In this document: positions 10,801-21,914 of the stretch, piece after piece
Layout: the number at the start of each line of letters is the position of its first letter
How positions within the stretch are numbered: the stretch's first letter is position 1
Virus record (IMG/VR): IMGVR_UViG_3300009151_000437
Span: 1-22,434 of that record
Direction: 5' to 3' (one strand)
Length of the DNA stretch: 22,434 nt
Source of the DNA: a virus
Program-made: the position numbers and the translations under genes
Notes under the pieces: generated by a model
What the model saw: the letters and a program-made list of their open reading frames with translations, nothing else
Database searches by the model: none
What the model was told of the DNA's origin: nothing

Positions 10801-11058
10801 CTACCCACTTAAACTTGGATTTACGGCGTTCACCAATGAAAGCGCCCACTCCTGCCAATCATCAAATGCATCCGTCTGCGGGATGGCTTCGTTGGCAAAC
10901 ACATCAATTGCTTTAAGACCATTTCCCCACGTCTTCCAATCAGTGGTTGGTGATGGTATCTCAAGCTGCTGCGGGGCGTACAGTTCGCACATGAGCGATG
11001 CCCACGAGTCAAACGTGTGATACCGAGGGTCGTATATCTGTGCGGGATTAAGTGCCAT
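10801..11058 (-). CDS. 85-residue conserved-looking phage protein of unknown function
   Basis: The ATG at 11058 has GAGG a few bases upstream and overlaps the end of the nozzle-like gene by 11 bases; earlier in-frame starts lie deeper in that gene and lack support. The product begins MALNPAQIYDPRYHTF and contains many aromatic residues (WASLMCELY, TDWKTWGNG, DDWQEWAL). It is acidic, with no membrane segment. I have the impression of having seen the Tyr-Asp-Pro...Trp-x-x-Trp-Gly pattern in other uncultured phages, but know no function. Tight overlap with the nozzle gene suggests a virion accessory or assembly role. Confidence 0.65.
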   Translation of the reverse strand: MALNPAQIYDPRYHTFDSWASLMCELYAPQQLEIPSPTTDWKTWGNGLKAIDVFANEAIPQTDAFDDWQEWALSLVNAVNPSLSG

Positions 11059-13528
11059 ATGGCCTCGTATCGCCGATCTCAGCGGTGACCAAGAGCTTAC
11101 CAAGCTGGTAATTCCCGCCAACAACATTGGAGACAAACCTTAGCCTGATCTCCCTGCGCTGTTCGCGCATATCCAATTTGCCGGTGTTCTCATCAAAGAC
11201 GTATGGGCCAGTAGTTACATCCTCGGCCTGAGCAAATGGCCGTCCGGTGACATAAATTTCCATCTCACCAGATTGCACAAAGTCAGGCTCAATGCGGTCA
11301 ACCCGAAGCCATTTATTTATGCCATCCATTGCTGGCTGCGATGGGCCACCGCCTACCCAGCCCAAATCATTGGTCTCAAAATAACTTGGAATGGCGGTAA
11401 CCTCTTGGCCGTTGATCTCGTCGGTTCCAACCTCGTGCTGGTAGAAGTTGATTAAATCTGGCGGGGTTGAAAACGTCAAGGTATTTGTTCCTGTTGCCGT
11501 TGCGGCCAAAGAAAGCCCAATTGCTTGCGCGTAAATAGCAGACACAGGCACCGAAAAACCAGAACCAGTTCCGCCTATTGATGCCGCCGTTGCACTCAGC
11601 ACATTGCCAACAACGTAGTTTGATCCTCTGGCCGTGATGGTCACAGACGTTACCGCAGCACCAGAAACAATAATAGTTGCTTTTGCCCCAAATCCCGATC
11701 CACCAGTAAGGTTTACATTGGTGTACGTCCCATTGGTGTACAGCGAACCGCCAGTAATAGAGCCAAGTGTTTTTATGTTGCTTGAAGTAATTCCAATCAC
11801 GGTCGTGCCAGAGGCTATTCCTGTACCAGAGACAACTTGCAACAAAACAGCAGACGATTGATAGGTGTCTGTATATGCAAAGTAGCTGCCAGTTGTCAGC
11901 GTGTAAGCGGCAGAAAAAACAACCGTGCTTTCTGTGGTTGTCCAGCCAGCTTCAATTGGGTAAGCAAAAACTTGCGAGAAGTACCCTGAGCTACGATACG
12001 CACCCGTTGATTGGCCTACGTCATACCAAGTGTTTTCACGCACGTTGTAGACAATGGCATCAGTGCATTCTGTAGCGTCCCCGCGAGGGTAGAACCACCA
12101 AATCTCACCAAACCTTGGCACCTTGGTAACCCATACTTTTTGGCGCTGGTTGTAATTCAGGTTATCAAAGAACCAGTTCTGGTTCATTGTGTTTGGTATC
12201 TCTTTCACAACACCGTTGTACATCAGGAAGCGGTCAACGCCACACCAGTAATACACACCATCGTACTCAATAGCGCACTGGCTGGACATGATGGATGACT
12301 GGCTGCTGATGATGTCGTAGCGCCAGTATTGGGCAGGAGTTCCTGTCCCGCCGATGTAGGACACGCGAATAAGGCTGTCAACGCTCCAAAACAGGCCAGA
12401 AGGCGAGTTGGAGCCGCCCCTGACGGGTAATCCTTGGACAATCTTTCCGGTCGCTACATTGGTCGCATTTGCGTCCGCAGACACCCAGTCGTTGGTATTG
12501 CCTGCCGCGCAGTTTTGGATTAGGCCATTGTTGCCATACACAAACACATATGGGTGCAGGGATACAACCCCACCAGAGACCGAGATGTTGTTGTTGAACG
12601 TGATCGTGGTTGCGCCAGAGCTTGCAGTTGCCGCATTTGAAATTGTTACTGCTTGGAATTGACCAAGGGTAAAAACAAGCCCAGTAGTAGTACCTACGGT
12701 GGTGACGATTGCAGCTCCACCAGAAGTTGCAGACAGGGTAAAAGTGGTCGCAAAGTTTGTGGCAATGATGTAATAGGTTGTGTTGGTCGCAATGCCAGTT
12801 GCAGTGCCTGTCAGCGTGCCAGAAGTCTTTACCGTTTGACCAACAAACAAACCTGCGGTTGAAGCGCAGCTACATTGACCAGCTATGCCCGTAACGGCAA
12901 CAGTGACTAAGTTTGGCGCAGAAAGCGTTGAAGCGGTAACAGTAGTGCTTGCGGGGATGCCTGTGCCAGAAATAGATTGACCAGCGCCAATCAAGGTGTT
13001 GGTGGTAGCCAACGACATTGTGGTAGTGCTATTCAACACCACGCTGGCAGTAAACACGCCAATCTGACTCATTGTTGATCCAACAATGTCGCCTATCAAG
13101 ACCGGCGTATTAACAGTATTAGTGATGTCACTAAGGTTTTGACATGGGGCTGCAAGTAATGATTGAATGCCAGAGCCAGACACATCATAGAAGCCGTCAA
13201 ACTGCCACAAGTTGTTGTTTGAGGCGGTGAAGTTTGAAAGCGTGTAATTAGTGAACCCAGAGCCAACTCCATTGTTGTCAACGCCAAAAGATTGCAAGCC
13301 GTTGTTGTACCCGCTGTAAATGTAGTTTATGCCATTTTGAGCATTTAGCCAGACGCCACGCGAAGGGCCAGTCAATTGAGAAGTCATTACCCTGTACCCG
13401 CCAATCTTGCGGGGGCGTCCACGCTGGAAACGAACCCATTGACCAGAGGTGTAAAAATTTTTGTCAAAGACCGTTCCATCCCGCTGAATGCCGGGTTGCG
13501 TGTCAAGAGAAAAAACTTTTTGTCCCAT
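11048..13528 (-). CDS. nozzle/tail-hub (P22 gp10-like stabilisation) structural protein with inserted fibre-like modules (826 aa)
   Basis: The N-terminus, with GQWVRFQRGRPRKIGGYR (about residues 30-47), and the C-terminus, with an RREIRLRFVSNVVGGNYQLG-type ending, match the pattern I know from packaged-DNA-stabilisation or nozzle proteins of short-tailed phages, which close the portal below the adaptor ring. The beta-rich core includes SVDSLIRVSYIGG and KVPRFGEIWWFYPRG. Two low-complexity inserts interrupt it: about residues 140-320, Thr/Ser/Ala-rich with GTGIPASTTVT and an unusual CSCAS, and about residues 533-686, with a GGSLYTNGTYTN...VTITARGSNY module familiar from phage fibres. The start overlaps the stop of the fibre gene as TAATG. 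Assignment to the nozzle/gp10 group is by pattern and position next to the adaptor. Confidence 0.7.
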   Translation of the reverse strand: MGQKVFSLDTQPGIQRDGTVFDKNFYTSGQWVRFQRGRPRKIGGYRVMTSQLTGPSRGVWLNAQNGINYIYSGYNNGLQSFGVDNNGVGSGFTNYTLSNFTASNNNLWQFDGFYDVSGSGIQSLLAAPCQNLSDITNTVNTPVLIGDIVGSTMSQIGVFTASVVLNSTTTMSLATTNTLIGAGQSISGTGIPASTTVTASTLSAPNLVTVAVTGIAGQCSCASTAGLFVGQTVKTSGTLTGTATGIATNTTYYIIATNFATTFTLSATSGGAAIVTTVGTTTGLVFTLGQFQAVTISNAATASSGATTITFNNNISVSGGVVSLHPYVFVYGNNGLIQNCAAGNTNDWVSADANATNVATGKIVQGLPVRGGSNSPSGLFWSVDSLIRVSYIGGTGTPAQYWRYDIISSQSSIMSSQCAIEYDGVYYWCGVDRFLMYNGVVKEIPNTMNQNWFFDNLNYNQRQKVWVTKVPRFGEIWWFYPRGDATECTDAIVYNVRENTWYDVGQSTGAYRSSGYFSQVFAYPIEAGWTTTESTVVFSAAYTLTTGSYFAYTDTYQSSAVLLQVVSGTGIASGTTVIGITSSNIKTLGSITGGSLYTNGTYTNVNLTGGSGFGAKATIIVSGAAVTSVTITARGSNYVVGNVLSATAASIGGTGSGFSVPVSAIYAQAIGLSLAATATGTNTLTFSTPPDLINFYQHEVGTDEINGQEVTAIPSYFETNDLGWVGGGPSQPAMDGINKWLRVDRIEPDFVQSGEMEIYVTGRPFAQAEDVTTGPYVFDENTGKLDMREQRREIRLRFVSNVVGGNYQLGKLLVTAEIGDTRPYGT

Positions 13529-14772
13529 TAGTATGTACCGCCAAAAACTCCGCCAGTAAATGTGCCAGTGCCAGTAATCAACAGTCCTGTTGCAGTAAGG
13601 TCAAATCTTTGAACCCCAAGGACGGAAATGCCAAACTCGCCAGAGCCGGGACGATAAATACCTGTTGAGGTCTCTGAGCCAAAGTTCAACGATGGGCTAC
13701 CCGCCGTTCCATCAATAAGCGACAAGGCAGCAGATCCAGCAGTAACTGTTGCTGCATTAAGCAAGTTGGTGGAATCGCAAACAAGAATTGCTTGCTGGCT
13801 TGCAGTGACCGTTGCGGAGGATGCTCCAGACACATTGGTGGTAAATGTGATTGTGTATCCGGGGCCACCACCATTGGTTTGGTTTGTGATGTAGTAAACC
13901 TGAATTGTTTGTGGAACCACAATGGTGACGTTACCAGTCAAAGTGCCCGTGTACTTTTGAATGGTGTTTGACGCCTCTGCGGCGGTCAATGTGTACGTCC
14001 CAGATACAACTGCCTTAGTCAACTGGCTAAAATTAAATTGCGTGTTTTGACCAAGACCGACCGTGTAAAAAGCTGAACCAGAGCAACAAATAATGCAAGA
14101 ATCATCTGGCTGCAAAATAATAGAAGCAGCGCCATTGATTAGGTTGCCGCCTGAAGGAGAGACAGTCAATGTTCCAGTGCCTCCGTTTCGCAGCAGCATA
14201 AACCAGTTATCGCCAAGTGTGCCAACAGAAGACAGTGTTAGGGTTCCAGAGCCGCCAGTCCAAATGTAAGATGACGCCCTATCGGAAGAGACCGCCGTGT
14301 AATTTGTTCCAAAGGTTTGTACAGGGTATGCGGTATTGAGCGTGTTGGTTATTGCAAGCAGCCCATACCCAGCAAGCGTTGCCGCATCGGTGTTGGATGA
14401 TCCCAAGCCAAACGCAATGATCCCCCAAGTCCCGTACTCATCAGGATTGGCGGTGATGTATATGTATTGAGCCTGACTTGGCTGCACAGTAACGATTACA
14501 TGGGAACCAGAGTAGTCGTAAACCGTAACCGCAAAGCTACCAGTGTTTCGAATCAAAGCATCCTGACCAACAGACGTTTGATTTGCCGGAGGCATATACA
14601 GGCCATATGCAGCAGATGGAGAACTAACCTGCATAATCCGAGCGGCAACACTGTCTGTAACGCTGCCATTGATGGGCCATTCCAACTGCGTGTTAGCAGC
14701 CAGAGTGATTGAGCGGAACGATACGTCCGTAGGCTGGATTACTTGTCCAGTAAAAGGTGATGTAAAACTCAT
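13528..14772 (-). CDS. tail fibre/spike-like structural protein (414 aa)
   Basis: The protein is rich in Thr, Ser, Gly and Val and looks all-beta. It starts MSFTSPFTGQVIQPTDVSFR. Middle segments such as YTAVSSDRASSYIWTGGSGT and SGTYTLTAAEASNTIQKYTG resemble trimeric fibre modules. Near the C-terminus SPSLNFGSETSTGIYRPG (about residues 358-375) matches a motif common in phage fibres just before terminal fibre repeats or an S74 chaperone. Here the protein ends about 40 residues later (GGVFGGTY) with no S74 domain. It lies between the adaptor and nozzle genes, joined to both by TAATG junctions, so it may be a neck or tail-attached fibre. Receptor binding is inferred, not shown. Confidence 0.65.
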   Translation of the reverse strand: MSFTSPFTGQVIQPTDVSFRSITLAANTQLEWPINGSVTDSVAARIMQVSSPSAAYGLYMPPANQTSVGQDALIRNTGSFAVTVYDYSGSHVIVTVQPSQAQYIYITANPDEYGTWGIIAFGLGSSNTDAATLAGYGLLAITNTLNTAYPVQTFGTNYTAVSSDRASSYIWTGGSGTLTLSSVGTLGDNWFMLLRNGGTGTLTVSPSGGNLINGAASIILQPDDSCIICCSGSAFYTVGLGQNTQFNFSQLTKAVVSGTYTLTAAEASNTIQKYTGTLTGNVTIVVPQTIQVYYITNQTNGGGPGYTITFTTNVSGASSATVTASQQAILVCDSTNLLNAATVTAGSAALSLIDGTAGSPSLNFGSETSTGIYRPGSGEFGISVLGVQRFDLTATGLLITGTGTFTGGVFGGTY

Positions 14773-15407
14773 TATGAATCCCTTGCAATTGCTTGCCTGT
14801 CAGCCAGCCGGTTAAGATTTTCGGTTTGCAAAACCGCAATGATCTTGTCGTACTGCGCTTGCCACATTGGTATGCGCTCGTCGTTTTTGAGGAATGGCAT
14901 TGCTTGCAACAAAGATCCGTACAGCAGAGCTTGCGGAGCGTACTGGGTAAACCAGTTGCTTTGGTTGGACGAGTCAAGCGGTTGGTTGCGCTCGTAGTAC
15001 AAGACCTCGTAGCTGTATGCAACCGCTGGGGTGGGTGCCACCAACCAGTGTTCGTAATCGTAATCGCAGAAGTACAGTGGAACGTCCGTTGAACTGGCGT
15101 TAGGCCAATACTCGCGCAGGTATTCGTAAGTTCGCAGAAGAACGGGCTGGCGCTTGCTTGAAACGGTCACATTCATGGATACCGTCTTGCGCCAACGGGC
15201 AGGCTTTGCAATCGTGGCCTCTCCCAAAACCATGTTGCTGCCCACGACCACCAAGTTGCCAAGGAATTTAATTTCGGATGCAATGATCTGCTCGGCCAGC
15301 ATGATGAACTGAGGAATTTTTGCCAGCGTGGTGGCGTCCGTCCGCTCCAAATAAGACTGAATGTCTTCTACAAGGGAGTCATACGTCATTACCGAAGCGG
15401 TCGTCAT
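14772..15407 (-). CDS. head-tail adaptor protein (gp4/gp11-like, SU10-adaptor type), 211 aa
   Basis: The N-terminal helix YDSLVEDIQSYLER, the segment IPQFIMLAEQIIASEI, the following VVVGSNMVLGEATIAKPARWR, then YEYLREYWPNA, LYFCDYDYEHWLVAPTP and YSYEVLYYERNQPLD, and finally the helix APQALLYGSLLQAMPF are the signature order of phage adaptor proteins that form the ring below the portal. The length of about 210 residues is usual. The start at 15407 has GAGAGG upstream. The stop overlaps the start of the fibre-like gene (TAATG). It lies directly after the lysis cassette, which splits the adaptor genes of this phage into two groups. Confidence 0.8.
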   Translation of the reverse strand: MTTASVMTYDSLVEDIQSYLERTDATTLAKIPQFIMLAEQIIASEIKFLGNLVVVGSNMVLGEATIAKPARWRKTVSMNVTVSSKRQPVLLRTYEYLREYWPNASSTDVPLYFCDYDYEHWLVAPTPAVAYSYEVLYYERNQPLDSSNQSNWFTQYAPQALLYGSLLQAMPFLKNDERIPMWQAQYDKIIAVLQTENLNRLADRQAIARDS

Positions 15408-17324: not shown

Positions 17325-17762
17325 TTAGGGTTTAGGATATTTAGCTTTTACCGCCAAGCAGTCAGCTATGTACTTGTCAATCTGTGCCTGATCACCCTTT
17401 ACAACGCCGTCAAGGTAGTCGGTCATTGGTGGGTATTCTTTACGGCGCTTTTGCGCGTAAGTTAGGCTTGCCTCAGCGGCAGCTTGTGCGGCGGCAACTT
17501 TAGCGGCGGCAGCTTCCCGCTCTGGTCGAGCCAACTCAACAATTGAGTCAAAACCAGTTGCAGTAGAAGTAGAACTCTTGCGCTCTACCAACCAAACAGG
17601 GGCGCGGCTTTGGATTTCTGCAACAAGCGCATCACCCGTCAAAAATGCACCCTCAACGATTGGCACGTCGATTGCGTAGGTTGCAATGTCTGTTCCAAAA
17701 TTACTGTAAGTTACTTGAATTTGCCCAATTGTTGCATCCGCAGAAATAATACGATAGTCCAT
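17325..17762 (-). CDS. putative tail-fibre assembly/chaperone-like protein (145 aa)
   Basis: The N-terminal 60 residues look beta-rich, ending near FLTGDALVAEIQSRAPVWL. An Ala/Glu helix (residues about 80-105) is followed by YPPMTDYLDGVVKGD and YIADCLAVKAKYPKP. This C-terminal Tyr-Pro-Pro...Asp-x-Leu-Asp plus Val-Lys-Ala-Lys-Tyr-Pro pattern is familiar from small proteins encoded next to tail fibres (XkdW or tail-fibre assembly-like). It lies directly behind the glycine-rich adhesin gene, its start sharing a base with the previous stop (TAATG) behind a strong GGAGGT. I infer a fibre assembly or attachment role; it is not proven. Confidence 0.6.
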   Translation of the reverse strand: MDYRIISADATIGQIQVTYSNFGTDIATYAIDVPIVEGAFLTGDALVAEIQSRAPVWLVERKSSTSTATGFDSIVELARPEREAAAAKVAAAQAAAEASLTYAQKRRKEYPPMTDYLDGVVKGDQAQIDKYIADCLAVKAKYPKP

Positions 17763-18580
17763 TACGTTTGACCTCCACCAGTTGTGCCGCCAGTAATACC
17801 AGCGCCAGCGTTAACAAAAGATTTACCAACTAAACAAGCCCCACCAGCACCAACAGTTCCAGTAAAACCTATACCATCTGGAAAATTGCCCCCCGTAGCT
17901 ACTGATCCCGAAGACGCCAATGCGCCGCCAGCCCCACCCGTCATGCCAGTAGCCGTTCCGCCTACGTTGGTGGCAGAGCCTCCAGCACCGCCGTTGCCAG
18001 CAGAACTACCGCTTCCGGGAGAGCCAGCAGTGCCATTACCAGTGCCTGTACCGCGTGCGCCGCCGCTGCTAGAGTTACCTTGCCCGCCGCCTCCACCGCC
18101 GCCGCCGCCAGTTACATATGATGCACTACCGTCAAATGAACTAGCAGCGCCACCACCAGCGCCACCACCGCCACCGCCGCCAGCAACACCGCTGGTGTTA
18201 GTCCATGTGATTGCCCTACCAACAGACACCGCAGGGCCTCCAGAAGTTCCGTTTCCGCCCGTGGTATCGCTGCCATTACCCGGATTAGTAGCCCCAGCGC
18301 CACCAGTTCCACCAAAACCTATAACAGTACCGTTGTTTATAACAGCAACCGTATCGGCAGCATCCCAAGAGGTGTCTACAGTGAAGGCGTAAGAACCTGC
18401 GGAAGCAGAACCAACAACAACAGCATTGTTAATTGTAAAAGTAACATCAGTTTTACCAGACTGGTAACCGCTAACTTTTGCTGTGTTTGCAAGGTAGTTT
18501 TGGGTACTGGCGCTGATAGTTATGGTAACGGCAAGCCTTCCAGCGCCCTTAGCCACAAGTAATTGCTGTATTGCGCTCAT
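17762..18580 (-). CDS. glycine-rich tail-tip adhesin-like protein (272 aa)
   Basis: After an 85-residue N-terminal beta domain (TVAVINNGTVIGFGGTGG near its end) the protein is largely Gly, Ala, Ser, Thr and Asn, including runs of seven to nine Gly (about residues 132-160). The N-terminal INNG...IGFGG pattern leading into Gly-rich repeats is seen in phage tail fibres and adhesins. In gp38-type adhesins of some myoviruses, glycine-rich motifs form a polyglycine-II sandwich with receptor-binding loops. A similar fold is an attractive inference. It follows the main fibre gene by one base and precedes a fibre-assembly-like gene, which fits a fibre-tip protein. No clear ribosome binding site is visible. 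Confidence 0.65.
   Translation of the reverse strand: MSAIQQLLVAKGAGRLAVTITISASTQNYLANTAKVSGYQSGKTDVTFTINNAVVVGSASAGSYAFTVDTSWDAADTVAVINNGTVIGFGGTGGAGATNPGNGSDTTGGNGTSGGPAVSVGRAITWTNTSGVAGGGGGGGAGGGAASSFDGSASYVTGGGGGGGGGQGNSSSGGARGTGTGNGTAGSPGSGSSAGNGGAGGSATNVGGTATGMTGGAGGALASSGSVATGGNFPDGIGFTGTVGAGGACLVGKSFVNAGAGITGGTTGGGQT
18060..18185 (-). repeat. glycine-codon low-complexity tract in the adhesin gene
   Basis: Two blocks of GCC/CCG-type triplets on the plus strand encode Gly runs on the minus strand. The codons vary (GGC, GGT, GGA, GGG), so this is protein-level low complexity and not a simple microsatellite. Confidence 0.7.
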
Positions 18581-18581
18581 G

Positions 18582-20303
18582 TTATGTCAGCCCAGAACCT
18601 GTGATAACCCAAGTCGTACTGGTCATCTTGACAGCAGTTGCGACACCATATTGCGCCAAGGTGCGGCTACCGGTTGTACCTGTGCCGCCTAGATAAAGCG
18701 TGTCTGTTGTGATGGCAATAGTAACTGCATTGGTAGACATGTTGATGAACGTCACAGCAGTGCCAATTGCGTAAGCAACAGAAGCATTAGCAGGAATTGT
18801 GTAAGTAGCCGCCGCTGCCGCCGCAGCATGGTAGATGTGCTTGCCTGCATCCCCCGCCACAAGTGTGTAGCTGCCAGTCTGTGCATTTTGTGGGATGTTG
18901 ATGTACCCCACTCCATTTGTGCCATCTACCGTAGTGCTGCTTAATGTTCCCGAAGAAGGAGTACCTAAAGCGCCTCCATTCACAACAAAAGCACCCGCAG
19001 TGCCAGTATTTACACCAAGCGCAGTTACAACGCCAGTGCCTGTTGTGGTTGATGCAATTCCTGTGCTTGCGCCACCACCAATCAATATTGCGCTTGCCGC
19101 TAATGTTGCGGTTTGAGTAACCAATCCGCTTGTATTGTTTACCGCATTACCAATTGCTGTAACCACTCCTGTGCCGGTCGCAGTGGTCGCTGGGGCGGTT
19201 CCTGCGCCTCCACCAATCACAATTGCATTTGCAGCTAATGCAGCAGATGTAGCCCAAGTTGTACCGCTAGAAAAGTAAGGAATACCGCCCGATGTTCCCG
19301 CAATCGTAAATGCTGGCGTTGTTGTTGCCGTGGCAATCGAAACAATGCCGCCCGTCCACCCAATCGATGTAACTGTTCCAGTTGCAGCAGTACCCCAAGT
19401 AGGTGCAGCGCCTGTGTTTGCTGTTAAAACTTGTCCAGTCGTTCCAGCCGCTGTTGCAACAGGCGTAGCTCCAGCGCCGCCACCATAAACAATGCCGTAC
19501 TGAGTCAATACAGCAGATGTTGCCCAAGCAGTACCGCTGGTAAAGTATGGAATGCCCCCGCTTGTTCCAGCTACAGTTAAAGCCAAAGTGCCGCTTGATG
19601 TAATCGGAGACCCGCCAACAGAAATAATACCGCCAGTAAATGACTGAGCAACCGATGTTACTGTTCCACTAGCTCCTGTGGCAGCTATGCTAATAGTGCC
19701 ACTACCATTGGTAATAGATATGCCAGTTCCAGCGGTAAGCGTGGCTTTTGCCAACGTGTTGCCAGTTGTATTGCCAATCAGAAGCTGGCCGTCTGTGTAG
19801 CTTGTTTGGCCTGTTCCGCCAGAGGAAACCGCAAGAGTTGTAGATAGTCCTGCTGCTGTGCCGGTGGTGTTTTGATTTAATGTTGGGAATGTGCAGTTTG
19901 CCAAATTTCCAGATGCGGGCGTTCCCAGAGCAGGCGTGACCAATGTAGGGCTGTTGGACAAAACAACATTGCCAGTACCCGTAGAAGTTGTAACTCCCGT
20001 GCCTCCGTTTAAAACTGGGAGCGCTGTCCCAGAATAGGTAACGGCCAAAGTCCCGCTTGTGGTGATTGGGGATCCAGCTATTGACAAGAAGGAAGGAACA
20101 GACATCGCCACCGAAGAAACGGTGCCGCTAGATGATGTGTTGGAGGCCAACAACTTAACGGTGCCCGCGCTGTTTTTAAAGTACAACTTTTCATCCACGG
20201 TGTTCAGCGCAAGTTCGCCTGCAACCAAATTCCCCGACGACGGGGCCGCAGCAGCCGTGGTGCTGTAGTACAACGATATGGGGGTGTAACCTGCCTGTGC
20301 CAT
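18582..20303 (-). CDS. tail fibre protein with internal repeats (573 aa)
   Basis: The protein is Thr/Gly/Ala/Ser-rich and all-beta in appearance. The N-terminal region holds GELALNTVDEKLYFKNSAGT, typical of phage fibres. Residues about 60-240 include SPTLVTPALGTPASGN and NTTGTAAGLS, fibre motifs I know. Residues about 240-420 contain a 90-residue repeat (AGTSGGIPYF...WATSA...IV.GGGAG) present twice, and a shorter IGGGA...TGTGVVTA(I/L)G motif. The last 100 residues (YTLVAGDAGKHIYH, then TDTLYLGGTGTTGSRTLAQYG) match a fibre-end domain common in environmental phages. It is probably receptor-binding or a fibre shaft. TAAGGA lies before the ATG at 20303. It heads the fibre block, followed by the adhesin and assembly-like genes. 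Confidence 0.8.
   Translation of the reverse strand: MAQAGYTPISLYYSTTAAAAPSSGNLVAGELALNTVDEKLYFKNSAGTVKLLASNTSSSGTVSSVAMSVPSFLSIAGSPITTSGTLAVTYSGTALPVLNGGTGVTTSTGTGNVVLSNSPTLVTPALGTPASGNLANCTFPTLNQNTTGTAAGLSTTLAVSSGGTGQTSYTDGQLLIGNTTGNTLAKATLTAGTGISITNGSGTISIAATGASGTVTSVAQSFTGGIISVGGSPITSSGTLALTVAGTSGGIPYFTSGTAWATSAVLTQYGIVYGGGAGATPVATAAGTTGQVLTANTGAAPTWGTAATGTVTSIGWTGGIVSIATATTTPAFTIAGTSGGIPYFSSGTTWATSAALAANAIVIGGGAGTAPATTATGTGVVTAIGNAVNNTSGLVTQTATLAASAILIGGGASTGIASTTTGTGVVTALGVNTGTAGAFVVNGGALGTPSSGTLSSTTVDGTNGVGYINIPQNAQTGSYTLVAGDAGKHIYHAAAAAAATYTIPANASVAYAIGTAVTFINMSTNAVTIAITTDTLYLGGTGTTGSRTLAQYGVATAVKMTSTTWVITGSGLT
19241..19583 (-). repeat. in-frame direct repeat within the tail-fibre gene
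   Basis: 19241-19313 and 19511-19583 align with roughly three-quarters identity by eye, offset 270 bases (90 codons). A second, shorter pair (near 19080 and 19215, offset 135 bases) encodes the IGGGA motif. Both offsets are multiples of three and preserve the frame. Confidence 0.65.
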
Positions 20304-20315
20304 ATTTTTCCTTAT

Positions 20316-20585
20316 TTATGTGTTTACAAGACCGTCATAAGGCAATCCACCAGTATCCTCAAGCAGCGGTAAATCTGGGCGAGGGAATCGGATTGTGATG
20401 CGCTCGGTCTTGCGTGCTGCTAGGCGGTATGGATCAAGCTGGTCAGCGCAACCCTCATTACACACCCGCAGGCCGGGGAAGTTTGGATCGTTCCTCATCA
20501 CCGCATGGGGGCGCTTCATCTTGCATCTGTCGCAAATTGCGATTGCAATGTCTGAGTAACCAAGGGTATCCAGAAAGACTGGCAT
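20316..20585 (-). CDS. small Cys4 (zinc-ribbon-like) phage protein, 89 aa
   Basis: Four cysteines are arranged CxxC (Cys18, Cys21), 20 residues, then CxxxC (Cys42, Cys46), suggesting a structural zinc site. The segment NDPNFPGLRVC between the pairs, and DPYRLAARKTERITIRFPRPDLP after it, are familiar from small proteins encoded beside neck genes in environmental phages. The function is unknown. The start at 20585 has GAGG upstream and lies two bases after the adaptor stop. Placement between a neck adaptor and a tail fibre suggests a structural or assembly role, but DNA or RNA binding is also possible for a zinc ribbon. Confidence 0.7.
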   Translation of the reverse strand: MPVFLDTLGYSDIAIAICDRCKMKRPHAVMRNDPNFPGLRVCNEGCADQLDPYRLAARKTERITIRFPRPDLPLLEDTGGLPYDGLVNT

Positions 20586-20587
20586 GA

Positions 20588-21649
20588 TTACCTCGTGTAA
20601 ACGCTGATATTCGGCGCAAAGTAAATTGGAGACTTGTCGCGCTCTTCTTCCTCTGCTTGCGACAGGTACTTCGCGGCCTGTGTTTCAAGGTAAGCAACGC
20701 GATTCATGTCCACGCCGGGCAACTCCAACGACATCTGGTGGGCCAGCATACTCACCACGGCCAAATACCAGCGCTGAGGCACCTCTAACTCGCCATACAG
20801 GTCGCCAACGTCCATGACTTGCCGCGAGTACCACACCGTCATCTGATAAAAGGCATTTTGGGGCGTCGGCCACAACACAATCTCGCTTTGAGGGATCGTG
20901 CGGTTAAACCAAAACTGGAACGGCTGGTTGGCCGTGAAGTTCTTATTGGGCAGGTTGGTGTAATCGTCGCGGTTCAGACGCGACATGGTGATCTCGGTAG
21001 AGTTGTTGCCTAGATACCACTCACGCAGGCTTAATGTCGTGCCGCTGTAAGCCCGAATCCGGTAATACGGCACTGTCTGGCCGTTCTCAATGTCCGTCCA
21101 TACCCACTCATTGTCCACCACGGTGATGGTGCCAAGATCAACAAGCGTCTTCCAAGTGATGTTGTCTTGCGAGTATTCGTAAATAATCGACCAAGAGCCA
21201 GATGCCGCAGGAAGAAAGCCAATTGACCCTATAAAAATGGGATTTGAAGCACCGTAATCAACCGAAATATTGCCATTGGCCGTGGTCTGGGTGCATATCG
21301 TATCCACATCGCCGTCGTAGACGTTACTTACGGTGCCGCCACTAGAAGATGTGTACGAGCCAGTTGGACGCTCTAGCCAGCGATACAAGGCGTTTAGAAC
21401 GTCATTACCACCAACAGGCAGCAGGTATATTGCTTGGTCAGGGGAGAAGCCGTAAACCTTCTTGTTGATGGCCCAATACTGGATGCCAATGTTGATCAGA
21501 TTGGACATCAGGAAAAACAAGGACTCACGGGCCGACAGAACCTGCTCGGAAGTCAACTCCTCGGCCAGCTTGCCGCACCGACGAGCGCCGTGGTCAATCA
21601 GGGTTTGGACTGTGATTACCGTCGTCCCAACCGTTCCAGAGTAGGCCAT
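20588..21649 (-). CDS. gp4-like neck/adaptor protein with an inserted discoidin (F5/8 type C)-like domain (353 aa)
   Basis: Residues 1-92 (helical, TVQTLIDHGARRCGKLAEELTSEQ) and 215-353 (YTNLPNKNF..., FWFNRTIPQSEIVLWPTPQN, MTVWYSRQVMDVGD, EVPQRWYLAVVSMLAHQM) follow the pattern of P22 gp4-like tail accessory or adaptor proteins. Between them, about residues 93-214 look like a discoidin/F5-8C beta sandwich: VYDGDVDT, SVDYG, GSIGFLPAASGSW, SIIYEYSQDNITWKT and YYRIRA, ending in LREWYLGN. Such domains bind sugars or other ligands. It would be a neck protein carrying an outward-facing binding or stabilising module. AAAGGA precedes the ATG at 21649. It opens the fibre block, with the Cys4 gene next. 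Confidence 0.75.
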   Translation of the reverse strand: MAYSGTVGTTVITVQTLIDHGARRCGKLAEELTSEQVLSARESLFFLMSNLINIGIQYWAINKKVYGFSPDQAIYLLPVGGNDVLNALYRWLERPTGSYTSSSGGTVSNVYDGDVDTICTQTTANGNISVDYGASNPIFIGSIGFLPAASGSWSIIYEYSQDNITWKTLVDLGTITVVDNEWVWTDIENGQTVPYYRIRAYSGTTLSLREWYLGNNSTEITMSRLNRDDYTNLPNKNFTANQPFQFWFNRTIPQSEIVLWPTPQNAFYQMTVWYSRQVMDVGDLYGELEVPQRWYLAVVSMLAHQMSLELPGVDMNRVAYLETQAAKYLSQAEEEERDKSPIYFAPNISVYTR

Positions 21650-21659
21650 GTGTTTTCCT

Positions 21660-21914
21660 TTACCAGCCGGGGCAGTCCCACCGCTTTAGCGATGCTTTGG
21701 CGCGTGGAGCGTCCCCTTTTGAGTGTTCGACAACGCCAGACATCCTAGCGCAGAAAGAATCCTTGCGTGCCCCGCCTTTTGGCTGCGGCGCTTTGAGATT
21801 GGATCCAGTCTCTCTATTGTATTTCTCTCGGCCTTTTTGCGTAAGCCCTGCACCACGGTCAACGGACAACTTTTCTCCGCGACCAACTGCAAGGCTTACA
21901 TTCTTCTTGCTCAT
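21660..21914 (-). CDS. conserved phage protein, DUF6321-like (84 aa)
   Basis: The core pattern GLTQKGREKYNRETGSNL-KAP, then ARKDSFCARMSG, and a terminal ASLKRWDC is one I associate with DUF6321, a small basic domain of unknown function common in environmental phages. The product is highly positively charged, so DNA contact or packing is possible, but nothing shows it. It starts by ATGA overlap with the preceding gene and ends 11 bases before the start of the gp4-like gene, whose ribosome binding site lies in that gap. Confidence 0.75.
   Translation of the reverse strand: MSKKNVSLAVGRGEKLSVDRGAGLTQKGREKYNRETGSNLKAPQPKGGARKDSFCARMSGVVEHSKGDAPRAKASLKRWDCPGW

Follow-up and report, generated by a model that had tools for sequence, protein, structure and literature searches.

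The adaptor locus and its neighbouring genes

The window analysed here is the entire 22,434-base virus record IMGVR_UViG_3300009151_000437 of a short-tailed freshwater phage, with no larger genome attached. Its minus strand carries an open reading frame at positions 20588–21649, where a preliminary description had placed it, which encodes a 353-aa neck adaptor with the P22 gp4/Pam1/SU10/T7 gp11 fold whose chain is split by an F5/8 type C (F5/8C) sandwich of about 120 residues. The gene can be divided into three segments on that strand. The N-terminal half of the adaptor (residues 1–93, positions 21371–21649) comprises helices 14–24 and 34–54 followed by strands of a dock-like beta domain, and aligns in homologues that have no insert. 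The insert itself is a discoidin/CBM32-like beta sandwich (residues 94–213, positions 21011–21370). The C-terminal half (residues 214–353, positions 20591–21010) holds the remainder of the beta domain, helices 292–309 and 315–336, and a C-terminal arm.

In the order of transcription, the adaptor gene is followed directly by an ORF for an 89-aa Cys-rich (CxxC...C) protein (20316–20585, minus strand) and then by one for a 573-aa fibre-like protein (18582–20303, minus strand; phrog_31660, tail fiber, E 4.4e-18). The adaptor had been described as encoded immediately before the fibre block; the fibre-like ORF is indeed close by, but the Cys-rich ORF intervenes. Across related loci, with those at contig ends included, the Cys-rich protein was detected at 154 of 156 loci with long adaptors, 76 of 80 with mid-length and 18 of 157 with short ones. 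It is a possible partner of the insert-bearing adaptor. The fibre gene is adjoined by an ORF for a 272-aa protein (17762–18580, minus strand), the C-terminal two thirds of which are very glycine-rich. On the other side of the adaptor gene lies an 84-aa protein (21660–21914, minus strand) matching DUF6321 (E 3.9e-17), a domain that forms the C-terminus of much longer proteins in several PHROGs.

The adaptor gene is located upstream of the fibre, second adaptor-like and nozzle genes, and the capsid gene lies beyond the window. In the relatives MW202545 and CRP-901, the adaptor gene is placed after the capsid gene. Window and relatives together put it between the capsid and tail nozzle genes. The gp10/nozzle-like stabilization protein of the window (826 aa; 11048–13528, minus strand) was identified by phrog_3287 (E 9.2e-27), and its relative in MW202545 is annotated as a "phage stabilization protein". 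Residues 594–665 of this protein match residues 111–182 of the homologue in ctpbd312, out of order. Judged from this alignment, the nozzle proteins seem to contain a small domain that changes position, in contrast to the fixed insert of the adaptor.

A second adaptor-like protein of 211 aa (14772–15407, minus strand; SU10_adaptor, E 1.1e-22) is separated from the nozzle-like gene by one 414-aa fibre-like ORF. Relatives of it were present at 169 of the loci retrieved, among them insertless loci such as CRP-901 (20952–21578 of locus L083) and HTVC023P (gp56), and its profile matches the solved SU10 and Pa223 adaptors. Because these relatives run through the group and the profile matches solved adaptors, two stacked neck rings are plausible in these phages. 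We tentatively assign the 353-aa protein to the portal, since its gene follows the capsid genes in relatives and the protein is linked to P22 gp4; with two adaptor-like proteins encoded, however, either ring may be the one that touches the portal.

Profile matches and predicted structures

The two parts of the protein were recognized by different sequence profiles. The family profile phrog_12985 covered residues 217–327 in the C-terminal half (E 2.5e-12) and matched all 127 homologues that we collected. Pfam SU10_adaptor matched residues 206–336 at E 1.4e-3 (19.6 bits against a curated cut-off of 27); at E ≤ 0.01 it matched 110 of the 127 homologues, with a best E-value of 9.7e-15, and one insertless homologue (P0003) scored 52.4 bits. 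The insert region, residues 100–202, matched Pfam F5_F8_type_C at E 0.015, under the curated cut-off, and the insert searched alone reached E 3.5e-4 (21.1 bits against a cut-off of 28.2). The same profile matched 25 of 127 homologues at E ≤ 0.01, the best at 6.3e-6. A search of NCBIfam gave no match. For the adaptor part, sequence searches against the PDB with both the 353-aa protein and an insertless profile returned nothing significant, and the solved adaptors were found by fold comparison alone.

AlphaFold2 modelled the 353-aa protein with a mean pLDDT of 84 and a pTM of 0.69. The best-predicted region of the model was the insert, where ten-residue pLDDT means were mostly 91–96. When the model was compared with the PDB, the insert matched CBM32 and other discoidin-like domains (e.g., 4a42 and 2j1a), with TM-scores up to 0.81 normalised by the target. 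Among the best 50 matches listed for the whole model there was no adaptor, the insert alone having been matched; the likely reason is that the adaptor part of this protein is not continuous in the chain. We therefore modelled an insertless homologue separately. A predicted viral protein of 350 aa, A0A6J5RSL2, matched the 353-aa model over its full length (TM 0.84, 23% identity), so that the architecture may be older still.

The model of the insertless homologue (L188) was of moderate confidence, with a mean pLDDT of 74. Its elements (helices 13–23, 34–52, 169–187 and 189–210; strands 60–66, 80–90 and 97–100) correspond to the flanks of the 353-aa model, with the sandwich absent. Searched against the PDB, it matched adaptors and ring proteins of cyanophage A4, VP1, GP4 (two chains), DEV, LME-1, KHP30, SU10, N4, crAss001 and T7, with TM-scores of about 0.5–0.6 to the solved adaptors. 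The two GP4 chains among these model-based matches give a further hint of two rings, and crAss001 provides a precedent for stacked rings.

Both models contain two N-terminal and two C-terminal helices, with a beta domain separating helix 2 from helix 3 and an arm at the C-terminus. In the 353-aa model, the insert breaks a hairpin of this beta domain, the stem of which is formed by strands 81–93 and 207–221. The predicted architecture is thus a nested one, with a discoidin sandwich within a dock-like domain within a helix bundle. The preliminary description of a gp4-like adaptor interrupted by a discoidin-like sandwich and then resumed is confirmed by profiles, insertless homologues and predicted structures alike: the model is not a single continuous fold, and the sandwich stands apart from it. 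That description can be refined in three respects: the insertion lies within the beta domain that belongs to the adaptor itself, a second adaptor-like protein is encoded by the same phage, and the trait is found clade-wide.

Distribution and evolution of the insert

We then compared homologues with and without the insert. The closest insert-bearing relative in the phage collection was that of ctpbd312 (MW202545; 65% identity), annotated as a tail adaptor. The Caulobacter phages KcrB (gp076), RW, RLK and GB2A carry an insert-bearing form of 328 aa (40% identity) with the same architecture, although their insert is about 25 residues shorter. For the Roseobacter phages CRP-901 and CRP-902, the alignment was restricted to the two flanks; their protein of 226 aa, also annotated as a tail adaptor, has no insert. 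A search with this Roseobacter-phage protein added those of HTVC023P, DSL-LC04 (annotated as a Pam1 adaptor), Pag-Yong1 (annotated as portal-adaptor) and others. CRP-901, HTVC023P (gp54 in each) and DSL-LC04 thus encode direct homologues of both flanks but lack the insert. One step further outward, PAE2 gp7 and EPV1 gp32 match the P22 gp4 family, EPV1 gp32 weakly; the family is thereby linked stepwise in sequence to PAE2 gp7, which itself scores over the P22_Tail-4 cut-off.

Among viral contigs, we retrieved 515 relatives of the 353-aa protein, 178 of the Caulobacter form and 424 of the Roseobacter form, whereas a scan of the viral contigs with the QDWS535 protein gave no match. Bacterial genomes yielded no relatives, and no close prophage relative was present among the genomes scanned. 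Homologue lengths were bimodal, at about 203–252 aa and 323–361 aa. In an alignment of 127 proteins, residues 94–213 were empty and both sides filled in all 36 short homologues of 220–227 aa. These boundaries lie close to the 93–214 proposed earlier, and the segment is not part of the standard adaptor, as represented by the L188 model with its matches to solved structures. These results indicate that the insert-bearing architecture has been conserved across a large clade comprising hundreds of phages and is not a peculiarity of this contig.

In a tree built from the alignment without the columns of the insert, every protein that carries it fell on one side of a single branch with support of 99; this was a quick tree with long branches among the outgroups. 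The presence of the insert therefore corresponds to a single change on the tree. A gain is more likely than a loss because the insertless proteins include the P22-like outgroups, although the count of changes alone cannot tell the two apart. Pairwise distances in insert and core were correlated (r 0.57 and 0.66, Mantel p 0.001), and therefore no exchange of modules is evident.

Within the group of the window, dN/dS was 0.10 in the insert and 0.07 in the core, rough ratios given that dS was high and near saturation. At the level of these sequence comparisons, the insert evolves under purifying selection. It diverges faster than the core, with a mean identity of 0.62 against 0.76. Residues D112 and T117 of a DGDxxT-type loop are invariant in the 353-aa class, while the 328-aa Caulobacter-phage class is without about residues 104–125, the region of this loop. 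In many F5/8C and CBM32 members, the DGDxxT-type loop is a calcium site.

Possible roles of a sandwich at the neck

The account that we favour, and to which we give about an even chance of being right as a whole, combines an old single insertion, an outward belt and structural bracing. A complete F5/8C (discoidin/CBM32) sandwich would have been inserted once, long ago, into the hairpin of the beta domain and inherited with its host protein ever since. In the adaptor, the helices would form a bundle that lines the channel for the DNA, with the beta domain placed between the second and third of them and the arm at the C-terminus. By analogy with solved adaptors, its ring is probably twelvefold with the beta domain facing out, in which case some twelve sandwiches would encircle the neck of the particle as a belt. 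The most likely function of this belt would be structural, as a surface on which fibre or collar proteins dock, or the capsid rim rests, and are braced against the neck.

We found no solved virion of this clade, and the position and stoichiometry are borrowed from other phages. The outward position of the insert is suggested by analogy with DEV gp83, T7 and SU10. The beta domain of DEV gp83, 101 residues in length, is outward-facing and has been called a "lectin-binding domain" (PMC10925440), while those of T7 gp11 (PMC6702177) and of the SU10 adaptor (PMC9509320) are fibre docks. The ring proteins of crAss001 likewise combine helices with a beta sandwich, and R1 and R2 hold fibre hubs (PMC10172136). 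External decoration of the particle, glycan binding and clamping of fibres to the neck had all been suggested for the insert. Among these functions, fibre or neck clamping fits best, and glycan binding is a possibility. We prefer a structural surface over a host-range lectin because the insert is fixed, is inherited with the core, and was able to lose its typical loop; its faster divergence is a counterpoint, as this would also fit a ligand-facing role.

A working lectin is the first alternative, a possible but doubtful one, in which a ring of weak carbohydrate-binding modules at the neck would attach the particle reversibly to polysaccharide on the host surface, ahead of fibre engagement. Besides that divergence, it draws on the nearest folds of the insert being glycan-binding CBM32 modules and on the invariant D112 and T117 of the 353-aa class. 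Discoidin-like or galactose-binding-like domains, already known from the tailspike of phage LKA1 (PMC5701251) and the turrets of the archaeal virus HFTV1 (PMC12494034), have moreover been proposed to act in glycan adhesion. However, the motif-bearing loop is missing from the entire 328-aa class, and neither evident module exchange nor elevated dN/dS accompanies the insert.

We regard it as unlikely that the sandwich is instead a cement for assembly or stability that has nothing to do with fibres and packs between neighbouring subunits of the adaptor, onto the second ring or onto the vertex of the capsid. Such contacts are known, since the T7 beta domain also touches the portal clip (PMC6702177) and the adaptor of siphophage R4C uses an Ig-like attachment domain at portal and capsid (PMC10276861), and both purifying selection on the insert and the second adaptor-like protein found throughout the group would agree with a cement. 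Against this, the insertless relatives encode an adaptor without any sandwich, and peripheral beta domains in solved adaptors often hold fibres. Less probable again is a mixed history, in which a neck ring of functional lectins shares in adsorption and the binding loop was later stripped in the Caulobacter-phage branch, leaving a pure scaffold there. If a neck-lectin ring did exist, the neck would join the fibres and tail tip as a place where host binding starts. That the segment is no more than the usual beta domain of an adaptor, mistaken for a discoidin domain, is highly improbable and we reject it: both models do place a beta domain of the adaptor here, but insertless homologues retain that domain while lacking residues 94–213, and the insert matches CBM32 folds and Pfam F5/8C.

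Returning to the favoured outward belt, adaptors with outward beta domains and discoidin-like phage domains were already known, and the new element is a discoidin domain nested in an adaptor, of which we found no description in the open-access literature. DEV gp83 (PDB 9bgm), one of the structures matched by the insertless model, shares the four-helix bundle, the outward beta domain between H2 and H3 and the C-terminal arm, but has a single beta domain, whereas the equivalent domain of the 353-aa protein encloses an additional sandwich of about 120 aa. SU10 gp11 and T7 gp11 have the same fold order, and the family falls under Pfam SU10_adaptor; in these two proteins a small beta-barrel serves as the dock, no discoidin insert is described, and fibre docking has been demonstrated, whereas in the 353-aa protein it would be by analogy (PMC9509320, PMC6702177). 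The CBM32/F5-8C domains 4a42 and 2j1a share the fold of the insert but are glycoside-hydrolase modules, and binding by the insert would be putative. The R1–R5 proteins of phicrAss001, also matched by the insertless model, form rings of helices and beta sandwiches with several paralogues per phage; in contrast, that phage has up to four ring genes, and the accessible part of the report does not mention a nested discoidin domain (PMC10172136).

Podovirus adaptors differ in the cargo of their outward beta domain, and in solved phages this cargo decides whether and how fibres dock. An old, fixed and widespread nested domain offers a natural experiment on the function of such domains, and the architecture is directly testable in cultured carriers (the four Caulobacter phages) and cultured insertless relatives (CRP-901 and HTVC023P). 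The analysis also allows genes that are at present mostly labelled hypothetical to be annotated, and it points to necks with two rings in the group. A different insert, of about 85 aa, was observed in the homologous adaptor HTVC027P gp64 (1501–2439 of locus L247), in a beta-domain loop that comes earlier in the chain, and the adaptor beta domain thus tolerates insertions at more than one place.
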